Source: Aeromicrobium sp. (GTDB taxonomy: Bacteria > Actinomycetota > Coriobacteriia > Anaerosomatales > Anaerosomataceae). Taken from it: a stretch of 64,000 nt of DNA. The stretch spans positions 1 through 64,000 of the forward strand of contig JADIIM010000048.1 of the NCBI GenBank assembly GCA_015351705.1. Direction: 5' to 3'. Numbering within the stretch: position 1 is the stretch's first letter; every line of letters starts with the position of its first letter. The position numbers were made by a program, and so were the translations under genes. This document shows positions 3,657 to 40,535 of this stretch, piece after piece. The notes under the pieces were generated by a model. It was given only the letters and a program-made list of their open reading frames with translations. It did not search any database and was not told the origin of the DNA.

Positions 3657-5015
3657 TCACGCCACCAGTTCGCGCAGCGCCGCCCGGACGGCGGCCGGCA
3701 TCCGCTCCTTCAGACGCGCCGGGTCGCCCATCGCCTGCCCGAGCACGCGGGTGGTGAACGGCTGCGCGGCGGCGACGATGTCGATCTCGGGATACAGCGC
3801 CCGGGCGACCCCCTCCACCGTGGCAAGCGATTTGATGAGCAGCCCGTACCCGCTCGGGATCTTGACCCCATGCTCCCCCAGCAGGCGCAGGAACCCGAGA
3901 CCGAAGTGCGCGAAGTCGCGCGTGCCGTCAGGACGCGTCGTGCCGTCGAGCAACGCGCCTAAGCCCTCACGCACCGCATCGATGTGCTCCGGAGGAACGT
4001 GCACACCCAGTCTCGCCGAGTACGTCAGCGCCCGCTCCGGATCGCGGTAGACGAGCGCGGCCATCACCTGTGTGATGTTCATGCGCTCCTCGGGCGTGAG
4101 ATAGCCGACGATGCCGAAGTCCAGGTAGGCGATCGTGTTCTCCGGCGTGACGAAGATGTTCGCCGGATGTAGGTCGGCGTGATAGCGGCCGTAGACGAAG
4201 ACCTGTCGCATGAACGCCGTGGCGCCGTGGACCGCGAGTCCAAAGCAGTCGACCCCAGCGGCCCGCGCCTCCTCGAGGCCCGTGAGACGCCAGCCGCGGA
4301 TGAACTCCATGGTGAGCACACGCGACGTGCTGCGGCTCCACACGATCCGCGGGGCCACCACTTTCTCGTCGTCACGGAAGTCGAATCGGAACCGGTCGGC
4401 GAAGCGGCCCTCCTGTCGCAGGTCCAGCTCTCGATCGAGCGTCTCGGCGAACTCGTCGAGCAACGCGAGCGGGTCGAAGCGTCGCGCGATGCGGGTGCGG
4501 GCGATGCGCTCGGCCAGGCGCCGGGCGATCGCGAGGTCGGCGCGGATCGACCCGGCGGCACCGGGACGCACGACCTTGACCACCACGTCGCCGCCTGCGG
4601 GGAGCACCTCCCCCCACACCGGGCGATACGGCGCCGCAAGCGTGGCGCGATGTACCTGCGCGATGGATGCCGAGGCGAGCGGCGTATCTTCGAAGGTGGC
4701 GAAGAGCTCCTCGGGAGCGGCGCCGAAGTCGGCCTCGATCACCGCACGGATCGCCGAGACCGGCAGCGCCGGCACCGCGTCTTGCATCGAGCGCATCTCG
4801 GCGACCAGCTGCTCGGAGAACTCGTCGGGCCGCACGGAGATGAGCTGCCCGAGCTTCACGAACGCCGGTCCCAGCTTCTCGAACGACAGCCTGAAGGCCC
4901 GCGCCCACGCGGCGCGGCGCACGGCTGCCGGGGCCAGGCCGAACCGTGCGCGCGGAAGGGCGGCCAGCAGGTGGCGCGTGGTGGTCCATACGATGGTCGA
5001 GGTCCGGGACGCCAT
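3657..5015 (-). CDS. ABC1/UbiB-family atypical protein kinase
   Basis: A 452-residue member of the AarF/UbiB/COQ8 family of kinase-like ATPases, which in other bacteria support quinone biosynthesis or lipid handling. Visible are the family-specific KxGQ segment (FVKLGQLISVRPDE), the Ala-rich loop before SIAQVH, the Lys in VVVKVV, the catalytic YHADLHPANIF loop and the metal-binding LDFG. No transmembrane pair is obvious at the C-terminus (the final residues 415-452 are only moderately hydrophobic). The gene starts nine bases after the stop of the small coiled-coil gene upstream, so they are probably co-transcribed. The actual substrate is unknown; no ubiquinone genes are nearby. Confidence 0.85.
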   Translation of the reverse strand: MASRTSTIVWTTTRHLLAALPRARFGLAPAAVRRAAWARAFRLSFEKLGPAFVKLGQLISVRPDEFSEQLVAEMRSMQDAVPALPVSAIRAVIEADFGAAPEELFATFEDTPLASASIAQVHRATLAAPYRPVWGEVLPAGGDVVVKVVRPGAAGSIRADLAIARRLAERIARTRIARRFDPLALLDEFAETLDRELDLRQEGRFADRFRFDFRDDEKVVAPRIVWSRSTSRVLTMEFIRGWRLTGLEEARAAGVDCFGLAVHGATAFMRQVFVYGRYHADLHPANIFVTPENTIAYLDFGIVGYLTPEERMNITQVMAALVYRDPERALTYSARLGVHVPPEHIDAVREGLGALLDGTTRPDGTRDFAHFGLGFLRLLGEHGVKIPSGYGLLIKSLATVEGVARALYPEIDIVAAAQPFTTRVLGQAMGDPARLKERMPAAVRAALRELVA

Positions 5016-5024
5016 CGCGTGTCC

Positions 5025-5366
5025 CTATCCGTCGAGCTTGCGCAGGACCGACTGGAGCAGCGTCTCGATCGAGTCCAGGCGCCCGCGGAGCTCGGCGACC
5101 TCGAAGCGGATCTCGTCGAGCGCTGGGTCGCGCCCGGCAGTGCCGCCGGTGTCCTCGCCGCGGGCACGGGCCTCGAGCGCGGCCTTCAGACGCTCTTTCT
5201 CCTCGGCCACCATCGCCGCCAGACCGTCGACGAACGCGTCGGGGCCGCCGCCCATGCCTTCGGGCCCCTCGGCGTCGCCCCGCGCCACCGCGGCCTTCAG
5301 CCCCTCATCGGCGACTTCGTGCGTGAGCATCCACGCCGCGAAGAACCGCATCACGTCATCGGTCAT
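5025..5366 (-). CDS. Small phasin-like coiled-coil protein
   Basis: 113 residues with no signal peptide or membrane segment. The last 35 residues (LDEIRFEVAELRGRLDSIET and following) form heptads expected to be coiled coil; the middle is Gly/Asp/Glu-rich and likely disordered. The helical N-terminus followed by a Lys/Arg/Glu-rich helix resembles short phasin/granule-associated or UbiK-like accessory proteins. It sits nine bases upstream of the ABC1 kinase and is probably a partner of it. The ATG at 5366 has GGGGGAG very close to it, so a start at Met6 is possible. The functional assignment is inference from context. Confidence 0.6.
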   Translation of the reverse strand: MTDDVMRFFAAWMLTHEVADEGLKAAVARGDAEGPEGMGGGPDAFVDGLAAMVAEEKERLKAALEARARGEDTGGTAGRDPALDEIRFEVAELRGRLDSIETLLQSVLRKLDG

Positions 5367-5411: not shown

Positions 5412-7811
5412 TCACCGGGTCCGGAGCAGCCGTAACCCGTTCGCGATGACAATGAGCGCCACGCCGGTGTCCGCGAAGACCGCCATCCACAGCGTGGCAT
5501 GACCGGTGACCGCGAGCGCAAGCACGAGTGCCTTCACGCCGAGCGAGAGCGCGATATTCTGGCGGATGTTGGTCATGGTGGCGCGCCCGAGCGCGAAGAA
5601 CCCCGGAAGCGCGGCCAGGTCGTCGCGCATGAGCGCGACGTCGGCGGTCTCGATGGCCGTGTCGCTGCCGGCAGCGCCCATCGCGATGCCGATGTCGGCC
5701 GCTGCGAGCGCGGGCGCATCGTTGATGCCGTCGCCCACCATCGCGACAACCCCGTGCTGCTCCCTCAGTTCGGCGACGGCGACCGTCTTCCCGTCCGGGA
5801 GCAGGCGGGCCCGGTACTCCGGCACGCCCGCGGCGGCGGCCACCCGGGCGGCGGCGTGCTCGTTGTCACCGGTGAGCATCACGAGGTGCTCGATCCCGCT
5901 CGCTCGCAGCGCGCCGGTGGTCGAACCCGCGTCCGGCCTGATCGTGTCGGCAAGGCCGATCAGAGCGAGCAGGGCGGCGTCGGGTCCCGTGCGCGCGAGC
6001 GCGAGCACGGTGAGCCCCGCGTCCTCAAGAGCGGCGGCGCGCTCGAGCGCCTCCCCGGTGGCGGATGCGGCCGCCGATGCCGCGGCTGCCGCTGTCCGCT
6101 CGGTCACGAAGGCGACGTTGCCGACCACGAGAGGGACGCCGTCAGCCACGCCCTCCACGCCCCGACCGGGCGTCTCGACGAGCGCATCGACGGTGATGTC
6201 CGCCGCCCCCTCGGCGCCCGCGGCCGCCACGGCGCGCGCGAGCGGGTGCGTCGAGTGCGCCTCGAGCGCGGCGGCGAGCCACAACGCTTCCTCGGCCGTC
6301 TGCTCCGCGAGCGGCACGACCTCGGCCACGGCAGGCCGCCCCTCGGTCAGCGTGCCGGTCTTGTCGAAGACCACGGCGTGCGTCTGCCCGGCGAGCTCCA
6401 GAAAGGCGCCTCCTTTGACGAGCACGCCGTCGCGCGTGGCACGCGTGATCGCCGAGACGATGGCCACCGGCGTGGACACCACGAGCGCGCACGGACAGGA
6501 GACCACCAGCAGCACGAGGGCGCGGTATATCCAGTCAGGCAGTGCCTCGAAACCCGGCCACGGCGCACCGGCCTGACCGAGTGCGGGTGCACCGAACGCG
6601 AGCGCGAGCGCGCCCGCGATCACGACGGGCGTGTACCAGCGGCTGAACCGGTCCACGAAGCGCTGCACCGGCGCGCGGGACGCCTGCGCCGCCTCGACGA
6701 GATCGACGATGCGCGCAAGCGTCGTCTCACCGGCGCCTGCGGTCGTCCGCACCTCCACGCGACCAGTCGTGTTGAGCGAGCCCGCGAAGACGCGGTCCCC
6801 CTCGGCGCGGTCGGCGGGGACCGACTCCCCGGTGATCGGGGACTCGTCGAACGCCGAGGCGCCCACAGTGATCACGCCATCGAGCGGGACGCGCTCGCCG
6901 GGCCGGACGACGATCACCTCGCCGAGGGAGACCTCCTCGGGAGCGACCTCACGCTCCGCGCCTGCGCGCAGCACGCGTGCCCGCTCGGGCGCGAGCGCCA
7001 TGAGCTCCCGGATGGACCGTCGCGTGCGGGCCACAGAACGTGATTCGAGCACCCCGCCGAGCGCGAACAGAAAGATGACGGTGGCGCCTTCGCCCCATTC
7101 ACCGATCGCCGCGGCACCTGAGACCGCGATCGTCATGAGCACGTTCATGTCGAGGGTGCGCGCGGCAAGCGAGACCGCCGCACGTCGCCACGTGATGGCG
7201 CCTCCGGCCATGATCGCAAGGCCGAACGCCACCGTGGCCGCAAGCTCCGCGCCGAGCCAGCCGAGCAACCAGCCGATCGCGATAAGAGCGCCCGAAGCGG
7301 CCACCGTCACCTCGGCACGATGGCGGACCCACCACGTGGGCTCGGCGATGAGTACATCGTCTGCGACAAGCGGCTCCACGCCGTGCCCCGCCCCGGCGAC
7401 AGCGGCGATGGCCTGTGCGCGCGGGTCAGCACCCGTGTCATATTCGAGAAGCATCACGCCTGTGGCGAAGTTGACATCGGCGAAGAGCACTCCGGGAATC
7501 CTGCTGACGGACTTGGTCACGGTCCGCGCACAGTCAGGTCAATCGAGTCCCGTCAGGCGGTAGGCCACATGACCGACGCGCCCGGTCTCCTCGAGGACGA
7601 GGCGCCTGACGAGCGGTTCCAGGTCGCTCTCGGCAAGCAGGCGGGTGTCGAGCCCGACGCTCAGCACACCCTCCTCGAGATCGCAGGACACGGTGGTCAC
7701 ACCGTCTACCGTGCGGGCACGCTCACAGACACGCTCGGCGCACCCGGCGCAGTAGTACTCGCCGGGCAGCAGCGACCGCAGGTCGAAAGCGCGTTCGAGC
7801 GTGCGCGACAC
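5412..7811 (-). CDS. Candidate selenocysteine-containing Zn/Cd/Pb P1B-type ATPase (UGA read-through at 7539-7541)
   Basis: Exports soft divalent metals across the cytoplasmic membrane at the cost of ATP. The frame from GTG 7811 to the stop at 5412 is continuous except for one TGA at 7541-7539; read through, it gives 799 residues. N-terminal HMA domain 1 carries YYCAGCAERV; HMA domain 2 begins TGLD-[TGA]-PDCARTV, so TGA replaces the first Cys of the CxxC metal site (position 91). HMA 2 then continues normally (PGVLFADVNFATG). The body (5412-7520) has TGES, CPC in a membrane helix, DKTGTLT, the THPLA His-Pro motif, GDGINDAP, and the terminal Lys/Asp pair of the Zn/Cd/Pb class (GVKALVL, VFADTG). 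A SECIS-like hairpin follows the TGA. If not read through, the ATPase would have to restart at GTG 7520, inside a broken HMA domain and with no clear ribosome site. It lies directly behind an ABC exporter. Confidence 0.8.
7504..7537 (-). promoter_or_regulatory. SECIS-like hairpin directly after the in-frame TGA
   Basis: Counting from the first base after TGA on the minus strand, bases 2-6 (CUGAC) pair with 31-35 (GUCAG) and 14-17 (GGAC) with 27-30 (GUCC); alternatively 12-17 pairs with 27-32 as a 6-bp stem. The apical loop is bases 18-26, CGUGACCAA, with G as its second base. Bacterial SECIS elements known to bind SelB lie at this distance from UGA and have a G in the first two loop positions. 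Found by eye, no folding energy computed. Confidence 0.6.
7539..7811 (-). CDS. N-terminal HMA segment ending at the in-frame TGA (90-residue product if terminated)
   Basis: This is the part upstream of the TGA, listed apart because conventional termination would make it a separate 90-residue protein. It contains one heavy-metal-associated domain (YYCAGCAERV, then DGVTTVSCDLEEGVLSVGLD) and the first strand of a second one (VAYRLTGLD). A domain cut after its first strand is not a natural C-terminus, which argues that the segment belongs to the ATPase that continues in the same frame. Start chosen at GTG 7811, eleven bases past the stop of the ABC permease gene; the ribosome site (GGGCAG) is weak. 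Confidence 0.65.
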   Translation of the reverse strand: MSRTLERAFDLRSLLPGEYYCAGCAERVCERARTVDGVTTVSCDLEEGVLSVGLDTRLLAESDLEPLVRRLVLEETGRVGHVAYRLTGLD

Positions 7812-7822
7812 CGGCTGCCCGA

Positions 7823-8620
7823 TCAGGCCACGTCGCGGCGGCGGAACACGAGCACCGCTGCGACGAGCGAGGCGGCGCCGACGATCCCGTAGATCCACCA
7901 TGCCTCGGGCGCCACGGCATCACCGTTGATGATCTTCCCCGGCTGCCAGTAGGTGACGAGGTTGACCGGGTCGAGCACCTCGGCCGCCTCGGACACGTTG
8001 GAGACGAGGTCGGCGACCCACAGCACCCCCATCACACCAGCCGCGATGCCACCTGCACGCCCGCCGTCGCGGAACATCGCGCTCAGCAGCATGGCGATGC
8101 CGCCGACCGCCAGCATGAACAACACCCCGAACGCCGAGAGCGTCCAGAACGTCTGCGCGGAGAGCTCGATGTCGTACGTGGGCCCGAAGATGGCGATCGG
8201 CGCGAAGGAGGCGGCAGCGAGAAGCACGATGTATCCCACCAGCGCCACGACACGCGTCACCGCAAGGCGGACGCGTGAGACGGGCTGGGCGAGCGTGAAC
8301 TCCATCGTTCCATCGGCGATCCCACCGGCGAACGCCTTGCTCGCGAAGATGATGACCGCCGACGCGACGATGAGCATCCACATGAGCCCGAGGTACTCGG
8401 TCTGGAAGTACCCGCCGAGGGTGGCGAAGTCCACCTCGGTCCCGCCGAACAGTGCGAGCATCTCGGGGGGCATGTTGTCGATCAGCTCGGCGTACTGACC
8501 ACCGCCGATCTGCGGATAGAACCACGTCATCAGCCACGAGTACGCCACGAGGCTGACCGAGTACCACATGATCGAGGTGCGGCGAGCGCGGAGCGTGGCG
8601 CGCAGGAGTGTCCAGCTCAT
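7823..8620 (-). CDS. ABC-2 type transporter permease
   Basis: 265 residues with about six hydrophobic segments: one near the N-terminus (MWYSVSLVAYSWLMTWFY), then around 105-125, 150-170, 180-205 and a final one before the basic C-terminus VFRRRDVA. The pattern (cytoplasmic N-terminus, extracytoplasmic loop after helix 1, 'AGGIADGTMEFTLAQPVSR' coupling segment) matches ABC-2/NatB-type permeases. Its ATG abuts the stop of the ATPase gene upstream and its stop is eleven bases before the HMA/P-type ATPase gene, so all three are probably one operon. Substrate unknown; drug, lipid or ion export are all possible. Confidence 0.85.
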   Translation of the reverse strand: MSWTLLRATLRARRTSIMWYSVSLVAYSWLMTWFYPQIGGGQYAELIDNMPPEMLALFGGTEVDFATLGGYFQTEYLGLMWMLIVASAVIIFASKAFAGGIADGTMEFTLAQPVSRVRLAVTRVVALVGYIVLLAAASFAPIAIFGPTYDIELSAQTFWTLSAFGVLFMLAVGGIAMLLSAMFRDGGRAGGIAAGVMGVLWVADLVSNVSEAAEVLDPVNLVTYWQPGKIINGDAVAPEAWWIYGIVGAASLVAAVLVFRRRDVA

Positions 8621-9523
8621 CTACGCCTCCCCTCCCTCGGCGTCGCGGTAGAACTCGAGGAACACGTCCTCCAGGCTCGCCTGCGTGATGCGCAGGTCCG
8701 CGACCTCCGTGGTGGCCAACCGCTTGACGACCGAGTCCACGGCATCGCCCTTGACCCGCGCAGTCAGCCCGGATGCACCAACGCGCGCCACAGAGTCCAC
8801 GCCCGCCAGGCCAGTCAGCAGCGATTCGTCCGCATCCCCGGCAAGGGTGACCTGCAGGTGCCGGAGCCGCTTGGCCAGAAGCGAGCGCACATCCTCCTCG
8901 GCGACCAGGTGCCCGGAGCGGATGATGCCGATGCGGTCGCACACGCGCTCGACCTCGGACAGCACGTGACTCGAGAGGAACACCGTGCGTCCGGCCGCCA
9001 CGCGCTCCTCGATGACCTCGTAGACCGACTCCTGGTTGAGCGGATCCAGACCGCTGGTGGGCTCGTCCAAGATCAGCAGCTCCGGGTCGTGGGCCATGCC
9101 GAGGATGAGCGCGAGCTTCTGCTTGTTGCCTTTGGAGAGCTCGCGCACCTTGCGCCCGGGGTCGAAGTCGAAGCGCTCGAGCAGCTCGGCCTCCAGAGGT
9201 CCCCGGCTGCCGCGGAGCCCGGCGACCAGATCGAGGTGCCACCGGCCCGTCTCGCGCTCGAAGAGCCGCACCTCGCCGGCCACGTACCCGATGCGGTGCC
9301 TGAGCGCCGAGCCGTCGAGCGTCACCGGCTCGCCGAGCACCATCGCCTCACCGGCCGTCGGCTTGAGCATGCCGAGCAGGCAACGGATGGTCGTGGTCTT
9401 TCCCGCCCCGTTGGGGCCGAGGAACCCGTAGACGGCACCCGAAGGCACGCACATCGAGAGGTCCTCGATCCCACGCGCTTTGCCGTAGAACTTGCTCAGC
9501 CCCGCAGTGCTGATGACGTCCAT
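8621..9523 (-). CDS. ABC transporter ATP-binding protein (NatA/BcrA-like)
   Basis: 300 residues energising the permease that follows without a gap. Walker A GPNGAGKTT (about residue 37-45), a signature region degenerate as LSKGNKQKLALI, Walker B LLILDEPTSGLD, and the switch His in SSHVLSE. The C-terminal 80 residues (QVTLAGDADESLL onward) are the extension typical of multidrug/antibiotic ABC-2 ATPases. ATG at 9523 was chosen because the ABC fold starts there; the frame stays open 143 codons upstream with no conservation. Divergent from the surface protein gene at 9627. Together with the permease it forms a two-component exporter. Confidence 0.9.
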   Translation of the reverse strand: MDVISTAGLSKFYGKARGIEDLSMCVPSGAVYGFLGPNGAGKTTTIRCLLGMLKPTAGEAMVLGEPVTLDGSALRHRIGYVAGEVRLFERETGRWHLDLVAGLRGSRGPLEAELLERFDFDPGRKVRELSKGNKQKLALILGMAHDPELLILDEPTSGLDPLNQESVYEVIEERVAAGRTVFLSSHVLSEVERVCDRIGIIRSGHLVAEEDVRSLLAKRLRHLQVTLAGDADESLLTGLAGVDSVARVGASGLTARVKGDAVDSVVKRLATTEVADLRITQASLEDVFLEFYRDAEGGEA

Positions 9524-9626
9524 CGTCCTTGCGCCTCTCTCACGGACCGGGGCGATGCCCGGCTGCCAGGTCGAACACGCGACAGGGAACATACTATCAG
9601 CGACCGACATGGGAGGAGGGGTCGCA

Positions 9627-10289
9627 ATGGCCTCTGCACCGTCACGGAGCACGTTCATCCTGGCGCTCGTGCTCACCGCGATCATCGCGCTGCTCGCCGG
9701 GGCCGGCGGCGCATGGATGTTCCGCTCCTCGGAGATCGACGACCTCACGGAGCGACTCGAGGCCGCTGAGCGTCGACTCGCCGAGATCGCCGAAGGCGAG
9801 GACGCCTTGCCCGAGGATGACGAGGCGCCTGAAGACGAAACGCCGCCTGATGACGCGGCCGAGCCCGGTACGTCCGAGCCCGGCAGCGGCGCTGCGGGGC
9901 CGACCGAACGTGTCCCGGCGCTCGTCGCCTCGGTCAGGACGAGCGGCGGCACCCACTACGTGACACTCGACTACATCCAGTTCCTCACCGGGGCCGAGGC
10001 CGCGGCGGCGGCTGCGGCCGCCGGCGAGGAGTCCCCGCCGCCCAACGACTACTTCATCCTCAACGAGAACCCGCGCCTCAGGGAGTACCCGGTCCGCTCC
10101 GGCATCGCCGTGTCCGTGGTGTTCAATGCGGACGGGACGTCGAATCCCGAGGGCCGGAACCTGACGCTCGACGACTGGATCGCCGGGACGGTGGCCGGTG
10201 GCAGCACGTCACAGTACGTGGCCAACTTCTACTGGGTGTCGGTGACCGGCGGCACGGTGACCGAGCTCACACAGCAGTACGTGCCGTAG
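9627..10289 (+). CDS. Membrane-anchored extracytoplasmic protein, unknown function
   Basis: 220 residues. A single N-terminal membrane helix (residues 9-31, FILALVLTAIIALLAGAGGA) is followed by a short coiled coil (SSEIDDLTERLEAAERRL), an acidic Pro/Asp/Glu linker (about 52-88), and a compact domain with HYVTLDYIQFLTG, NDYFILNENPRLREYPV and NFYWVSVTGG. Orientation would put the domain outside the membrane. I do not recognise the C-terminal domain beyond resemblance to uncharacterised actinobacterial surface proteins. ATG at 9627 has a strong GGAGGAGG seven bases upstream. It stands alone between an ABC exporter (divergent) and uvrB (convergent). Confidence 0.75.
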   Translation: MASAPSRSTFILALVLTAIIALLAGAGGAWMFRSSEIDDLTERLEAAERRLAEIAEGEDALPEDDEAPEDETPPDDAAEPGTSEPGSGAAGPTERVPALVASVRTSGGTHYVTLDYIQFLTGAEAAAAAAAAGEESPPPNDYFILNENPRLREYPVRSGIAVSVVFNADGTSNPEGRNLTLDDWIAGTVAGGSTSQYVANFYWVSVTGGTVTELTQQYVP

Positions 10290-39573: not shown

Positions 39574-40535
39574 CACGGACCCACGCCACGCGGATCAGCA
39601 CCCTCGGGATCGCGCTCGCGCTCCTCGTATCCCCCGCCTCGGCACTTGCAGACCCTGCGACCTCCACGGTACCGCCTACGGCGAACGTGCCGGTGCTGAC
39701 TCCGACCGATCCGGAGGTGCCCGCGCCGCGCCCCGCGCCCGTGCTCGTGGTCCGCTCGTACGATACCTCCACGGACCGCATCGTCGTCGGCTCTGCGTTC
39801 ACGCTCACTCTCGAGGTCTACAACGCCACCGCGCGTCGCGCCGAGAACGTCGTGGTCTCGCTGGGCGCCTCGGCCACAGGGGGCATGCCTGACGCGGCTG
39901 CGACAGGCGGGCTCACGGTCCTTGGGACCGGCAACGCGAAGTTCCTCGGCGCGCTCAAGGGCCAGCGCGCTGAGACCATCGACTTCGAAGTGATGGCGGG
40001 CCCGGGAACGCCGCCGGGAACGGCCACGGTCCCCGTGACGGTCAGCTTCGAGTATGACGGTGTCCGCCAGGAGGTCGGCTACACCATCGGGCTGCTCATC
40101 GAGCGTGATGCATCATTCGCGCTCGTCTCGGCCGAGCTACCCGACAGCATCATGACCGGCGAATCGTTCGACGCGATGTTCGAAGTCGCCAACACCGGCG
40201 GCTTCGCCGTCTCGGGCGTGACCTTAAGCGTCGAAGCCAGCGGCGCGACGGTGGTCGACGGCACCCTGTTCCTCGGCACGTTCGACGTCGCAGGGACAGA
40301 GACCATCGACGTGACGATCGTTCCGGAAGGGCCCGGTATGCTGGAGGTCGCGGTCGTCGTGAGCTACCGGGACGACCTCGGCAGGGCGCAGTCGTTCCGG
40401 GAGACGAAGTCCGTGACCGTCGAGGACGTGCCGGACGACGGCCCGGCGGGACCCGGTCAGCCGGACCCGGAGAAGGAGAGCAACGACAACTGGTTCGTCG
40501 CGTTCATCAAGGCGCTCTTCGGCATAGGCGACTGA
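39570..40535 (+). CDS. Secreted protein with two CARDB/NEW3-like beta domains
   Basis: 321 residues. Signal peptide 1-28 (ALALLVSPASALA). Pro-rich stretch 30-52, then two immunoglobulin-like beta domains at about 55-165 and 175-290 (GSAFTLTLEVYNATARRAENVVVSL, GESFDAMFEVANTGGFAVSGVTLSVE) of the COG1361/CARDB kind found in S-layer and archaeal surface proteins. The last residues NWFVAFIKALFGIGD look amphipathic. Encoded between the ATPase and the permease of a MacB-like system, so it is probably the extracellular partner, in the place that MacA has in Gram-negatives. Role inferred. Confidence 0.8.
   Translation: MTRTHATRISTLGIALALLVSPASALADPATSTVPPTANVPVLTPTDPEVPAPRPAPVLVVRSYDTSTDRIVVGSAFTLTLEVYNATARRAENVVVSLGASATGGMPDAAATGGLTVLGTGNAKFLGALKGQRAETIDFEVMAGPGTPPGTATVPVTVSFEYDGVRQEVGYTIGLLIERDASFALVSAELPDSIMTGESFDAMFEVANTGGFAVSGVTLSVEASGATVVDGTLFLGTFDVAGTETIDVTIVPEGPGMLEVAVVVSYRDDLGRAQSFRETKSVTVEDVPDDGPAGPGQPDPEKESNDNWFVAFIKALFGIGD

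Follow-up and report, generated by a model that had tools for sequence, protein, structure and literature searches.

An in-frame UGA probably read as selenocysteine in the metal-binding domain of a ZntA-like P1B-type ATPase from a Coriobacteriia-type lineage

P1B-type ATPases that carry selenocysteine (Sec) in a UxxC motif form a known family (PMC2398784, PMC5029168, PMC13188914; exemplar ABB15669.1). Catalogues have listed Sec in these pumps since 2008 at the latest, and a 2016 survey tabulates the family with the figures 25 and 32 (PMC5029168). Roles in metal resistance have been suggested for its members in a 2026 review, which states that their function needs study (PMC13188914). Our literature search found no paper on members of the family from Coriobacteriia. 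The gene described here lies on the minus strand of a 64,000-nucleotide stretch of an Aeromicrobium sp. assembly (GCA_015351705.1, contig JADIIM010000048.1, positions 1 to 64,000), hereafter called the window. It shares with the catalogued Sec pumps the P1B ATPase with UxxC and the occurrence of UGA/Cys pairs, and it would be a real member of this family but not new in kind. What sets it apart is its origin in an uncultured Coriobacteriia-type lineage and its apparently vertically inherited locus. With ZntA, a P1B-2 pump for Zn2+, Cd2+ and Pb2+ (structures 4umv and 4umw), it shares the HMA and ATPase architecture, the CPC motif, the transmembrane Lys and Asp corresponding to K693 and D714, and the D-C-x-x-C motif, but it would have Sec in place of Cys59 and has an additional N-terminal Cys-containing domain of about 80 residues. 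HMA-like domains with Sec in the metal motif are also found in the UxxU metal-binding (seleno)protein NF041115 and in Sec-containing MerP-like proteins, which, unlike the pump, are small stand-alone proteins. The NF041115 profile scores 21.1 bits against the pump, below its cut-off of 95, which places the pump outside the UxxU family.

The original prediction held that an HMA piece and an ATPase body lie in one frame, split only by a lone TGA and six sense codons, and re-reading 7811-5412 (-) confirmed this. The frame is a single HMA plus P1B-type ATPase frame whose sole internal stop is the TGA at 7541-7539, which is followed by six sense codons (PDCART) and then by a GTG at 7520. Read through, it gives VSRTLERAFDLRS...AYRLTGLD[TGA]PDCARTVTKSV...DKTGTLT...RLLRTR[stop] (Table 1). 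In the CxxC motif the TGA stands where the first Cys would be (GLD-[TGA]-PDC), as had been claimed, and this residue corresponds to Cys59 of ZntA in the 4umv alignment. The HMA domain is also intact on either side of the TGA, with the Pfam HMA model matching across it (residues 85-142 of the read-through product, E = 7.2e-16). The same product matches E1-E2_ATPase and HAD hydrolase, and it reaches 573.9 bits with TIGR01525 (P1B-type ATPase; curated cut-off 346.25), CPC and DKTGTLT being present. Its best solved structure is ZntA 4umv (E = 5.8e-125), and that alignment shows CPC to be kept, along with a Lys and an Asp that match K693 and D714. CPC together with this Lys/Asp pair marks the P1B-2 (Zn/Cd/Pb/Hg) subgroup. 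With ZntA as the closest structure and these residues kept, the pump can be assigned to P1B-2. Standard gene calling divides such Sec pumps into two false genes.

Table 1. Coordinates of the features discussed, with the orthologues that carry a duplicated HMA domain
Feature	Position in the window	Strand	Remarks
Whole candidate selenoprotein gene	5412..7811	(-)	N-terminal Cys-containing domain, HMA with UxxC and ZntA-like P1B-2 ATPase; 799 residues read through
N-terminal part	7542..7811	(-)	Cys-containing domain with CAGC (residues ~1-80) and start of the putative Sec-bearing HMA
In-frame UGA, read as Sec (predicted)	7539..7541	(-)	First CxxC ligand in the HMA domain; at least 31 genomes have TGA here, every other orthologue whose codon was read has TGC/TGT
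Remaining HMA and ATPase body	5412..7538	(-)	CPC, DKTGTLT, GDGINDAP, Lys/Asp equivalent to ZntA K693/D714
Predicted SECIS-like hairpin, GCGGAC-CGUGACCAA-GUCCGU	7507..7527	(-)	Starts 12 nt past the UGA; 9-nt apical loop begins CGUG
Co-directional ABC transporter	7823..9952	(-)	ATPase 8621-9952, ABC-2 permease 7823-8620; ends just upstream of the pump gene start
Small ORF and ABC1/UbiB-like kinase	3657..5366	(-)	ORF 5025-5366, kinase 3657-5015; downstream, syntenic
Cys orthologues with duplicated HMA			L042, L046, L058, L063, L155, L156, L158, L159

To place the TGA among its relatives, the window genome (G000) and 60 relatives were searched in six frames and the site codons were read from the loci, the orthologues being 50-76% identical. 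Of the 44 genomes of the family and order with an orthologue, at least 31 have TGA at the site, and the codons read in the 13 non-TGA orthologues, covering all but G043, are TGC or TGT. The Cys/UGA pairs that the original prediction had proposed to look for in homologues are thus present, and the combination of a stop with residues other than Cys, which would have spoken against Sec, does not occur within the order, where only Cys or UGA was seen. Neither TAA nor TAG was found at the site among the orthologues read. A TAA in the relative G049 was at first a candidate for a stop at the site, but it lies at residue 721 and the site itself is Cys. Since the TGA is conserved over many independent genomes and at a syntenic locus, both a sequencing error and a random nonsense mutation can be excluded; the latter had already been judged improbable, and the conservation of the frame on both sides of the shared TGA bears this out. 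An ordinary nonsense mutation would have broken the gene into an HMA piece and an ATPase that perhaps restarts at the GTG, which sits 7 codons past the TGA. P1B ATPases without an HMA domain can be functional, and the G000 assembly lacks selA, selB and tRNA-Sec, both of which count for a pseudogene. We nevertheless consider a pseudogene extremely unlikely, given the identical TGA and intact frame in so many genomes, the conserved hairpin described below, and the selD and fdhA genes of the same genome, which also require UGA to be Sec. In a distant relative, L116 from Caldilineaceae, both HMA cysteines are gone (GLD-A-ADA).

The reading of UGA as another amino acid, by genome-wide reassignment or by Trp suppression, is less credible still. 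Nothing specific speaks for it, and among the orthologues read in the order the site never holds Trp or any residue other than Cys. The known Sec genes of the genome place UGA at Sec positions, and ordinary genes of the window stop at TGA, for example the ABC-2 permease ending at 7823. The UGA of the pump gene is, on the sequence evidence, almost certainly read as Sec at the metal-binding site: it alternates with Cys at one codon across many genera, is followed by a SECIS-like hairpin, and shares its genome with UGA-bearing selD and fdhA, as the original prediction would have it.

In the bacterial SECIS model, the apical loop measures 3-9 nt, has a G at its first or second position and lies 16-37 nt past the UGA (PMC13188914). 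Nearly all Sec orthologues contain a hairpin whose loop, CGUG.. or GUG, begins about 18-19 nt past the UGA, and several distant UGA-bearing members of Bacillota have GGU-type loops at the equivalent position. The core hairpin of the window gene has a folding energy of -6.9 kcal/mol, and folding all 51 nt from the UGA onward gives -16.1 kcal/mol; the energy that the SECIS model asks for is reached in this gene only when the lower stem is counted. Against synonymous codon shuffles, 33 UGA genes show an excess of hairpin energy and 57 Cys genes show none (P about 8e-9 by a Mann-Whitney test, a value that is too small because the compared sequences are related), and for the window gene on its own the difference is not significant (P = 0.117). 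Stronger evidence than the shuffle energies comes from the codons themselves, where synonymous compensatory changes maintain the hairpin pairs. An invariant Arg is encoded by CGG in all Sec orthologues in which it pairs with Ser TCC and by CGC in all in which it pairs with GCG. In the GCG-pairing group, Ala GCC accompanies GGC/AGC and Thr ACC accompanies GGT/AGT, and the GGT/AGT codons are rare in those Sec genes (3-24% usage). A single pairing register common to all hairpins was also considered and rejected, as the clades differ in register.

The original prediction had put forward, as a check, a search of the same genome for selA, selB, selC (tRNA-Sec) and selD. G000 has selD, with a UGA at the known Sec site (MSTKAG[UGA]AAKWGPGDL; L130, G000:C29:2181-3098), whereas selA, full selB and tRNA-Sec were not found in the assembly (60 contigs, 96.75% complete), the selD contig breaking off before their expected place. 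Matches of the genome to the tRNA-Sec model RF01852 reach at best 50.4 bits, and those checked are tRNA-Ser, Leu, Trp and others by ARAGORN. Formate dehydrogenase fdhA likewise has UGA at a known Sec position (NVEHQARI[UGA]HSSTVAG; L144, G000:C14:16367-17137), and the frames of both genes have this UGA and no other stops. In relatives selA and selB are adjacent, with tRNA-Sec nearby in the two genomes checked, G003 and G018 (72-73 bits). The selD contig of G000, C29, runs colinear with G011 up to its end, which falls inside the gene preceding selA there and some 4 kb short of selA itself; in the relative G013 selA is absent too, and its selD contig likewise ends near selD. The missing genes are therefore best explained by a gap in the assembly, and a true loss is unlikely. 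We thus rejected the idea that the absence of these genes disproves Sec, in view of the syntenic contig break and the UGA-bearing selD and fdhA. If the lineage had recently lost Sec decoding (selABC), the UGA would be a fossil that now truncates the protein, and the absence of selA, full selB and tRNA-Sec from the assembly speaks for such a loss; we hold it to be very unlikely, however, since G000 keeps the selD and fdhA frames, since C29 ends within the equivalent of a long G011 gene short of the syntenic selA, and since G013 shows the same pattern. The long G011 gene, in the selD-selA interval (L137:7086-11441), encodes 1451 aa with a proline/alanine/threonine-rich low-complexity stretch. 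A break inside its equivalent in G000 may be the reason for the missing sel cluster. In an attempt to anchor the far side of the cluster, no orthologue of the gene following selB in G011 was found in G000, where this neighbourhood is not conserved.

The pump locus is syntenic across the order, with uvrB upstream and the small ORF and kinase downstream, and it thus appears to have been inherited vertically. The ABC-2 transporter adjoins the pump gene in the nearest relatives and was not found at that place in others. No metal-responsive regulator was noticed adjoining the pump gene. The small ORF encodes 113 aa, matches no Pfam family, and is also found between the ATPase and UbiB-like kinase genes in relatives. 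A second candidate read-through in the window, two 429-codon frames separated by a TGA at 40533 (+), proved to be two separate adjacent genes, one CARDB-type and one a MacB/FtsX permease.

Taken as a whole, the gene very probably encodes one selenoprotein, a ZntA-like P1B-2 efflux ATPase in which Sec of the HMA domain is specified by UGA and the downstream SECIS hairpin. The first metal-binding residue of the cytosolic HMA domain (GLD-U-P-D-C) would then be Sec, its insertion directed by the hairpin just downstream and carried out by SelA, SelB and tRNA-Sec that are presumably encoded in the assembly gap. The pump would export soft divalent metals, to judge from its signature residues. The Sec selenolate and the Cys, perhaps with the preceding Asp, may bind the metal as the ligand set of a regulatory or loading domain; alternatively, Sec could act as a fast redox switch through an Se-S bond. 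Metal binding or Se-S switching at Sec might thereby gate or feed the pump. The locus would offer a clean, apparently vertically inherited case of Sec as a probable metal ligand and not a catalytic redox residue, and the occurrence of natural orthologues of both types, Sec and Cys, at a single syntenic locus makes what Sec adds to a metal pump directly testable.

Sec and Cys appear to have replaced each other repeatedly. A quick tree of 111 proteins, with long branches, gives at least nine Sec/Cys changes, six of them forced by well-supported branches; within the order, a tree built without the HMA domain gives six changes, three of them forced. Two tandem CxxC HMA domains are present in 8 of the 13 Cys orthologues and in 0 of the 30 Sec orthologues. 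This association is not significant after phylogeny is taken into account, and since it comes down to three supported independent pairs, it is a lead only. It is conceivable, though doubtful, that single-HMA Sec and duplicated Cys-type HMA are functional alternatives in the order, with the Cys lineages offsetting weaker metal binding by a second CxxC HMA. We further noticed a second, separate Sec P1B ATPase in relatives (L149, L150, L163-L166), which has a TGA at the same HMA position in the context GIT-U-LDCAAKFEK. This paralogue belongs to a different clade, which also takes in UGA-bearing members of Bacillota, namely Bacillus fonticola and Evansella.
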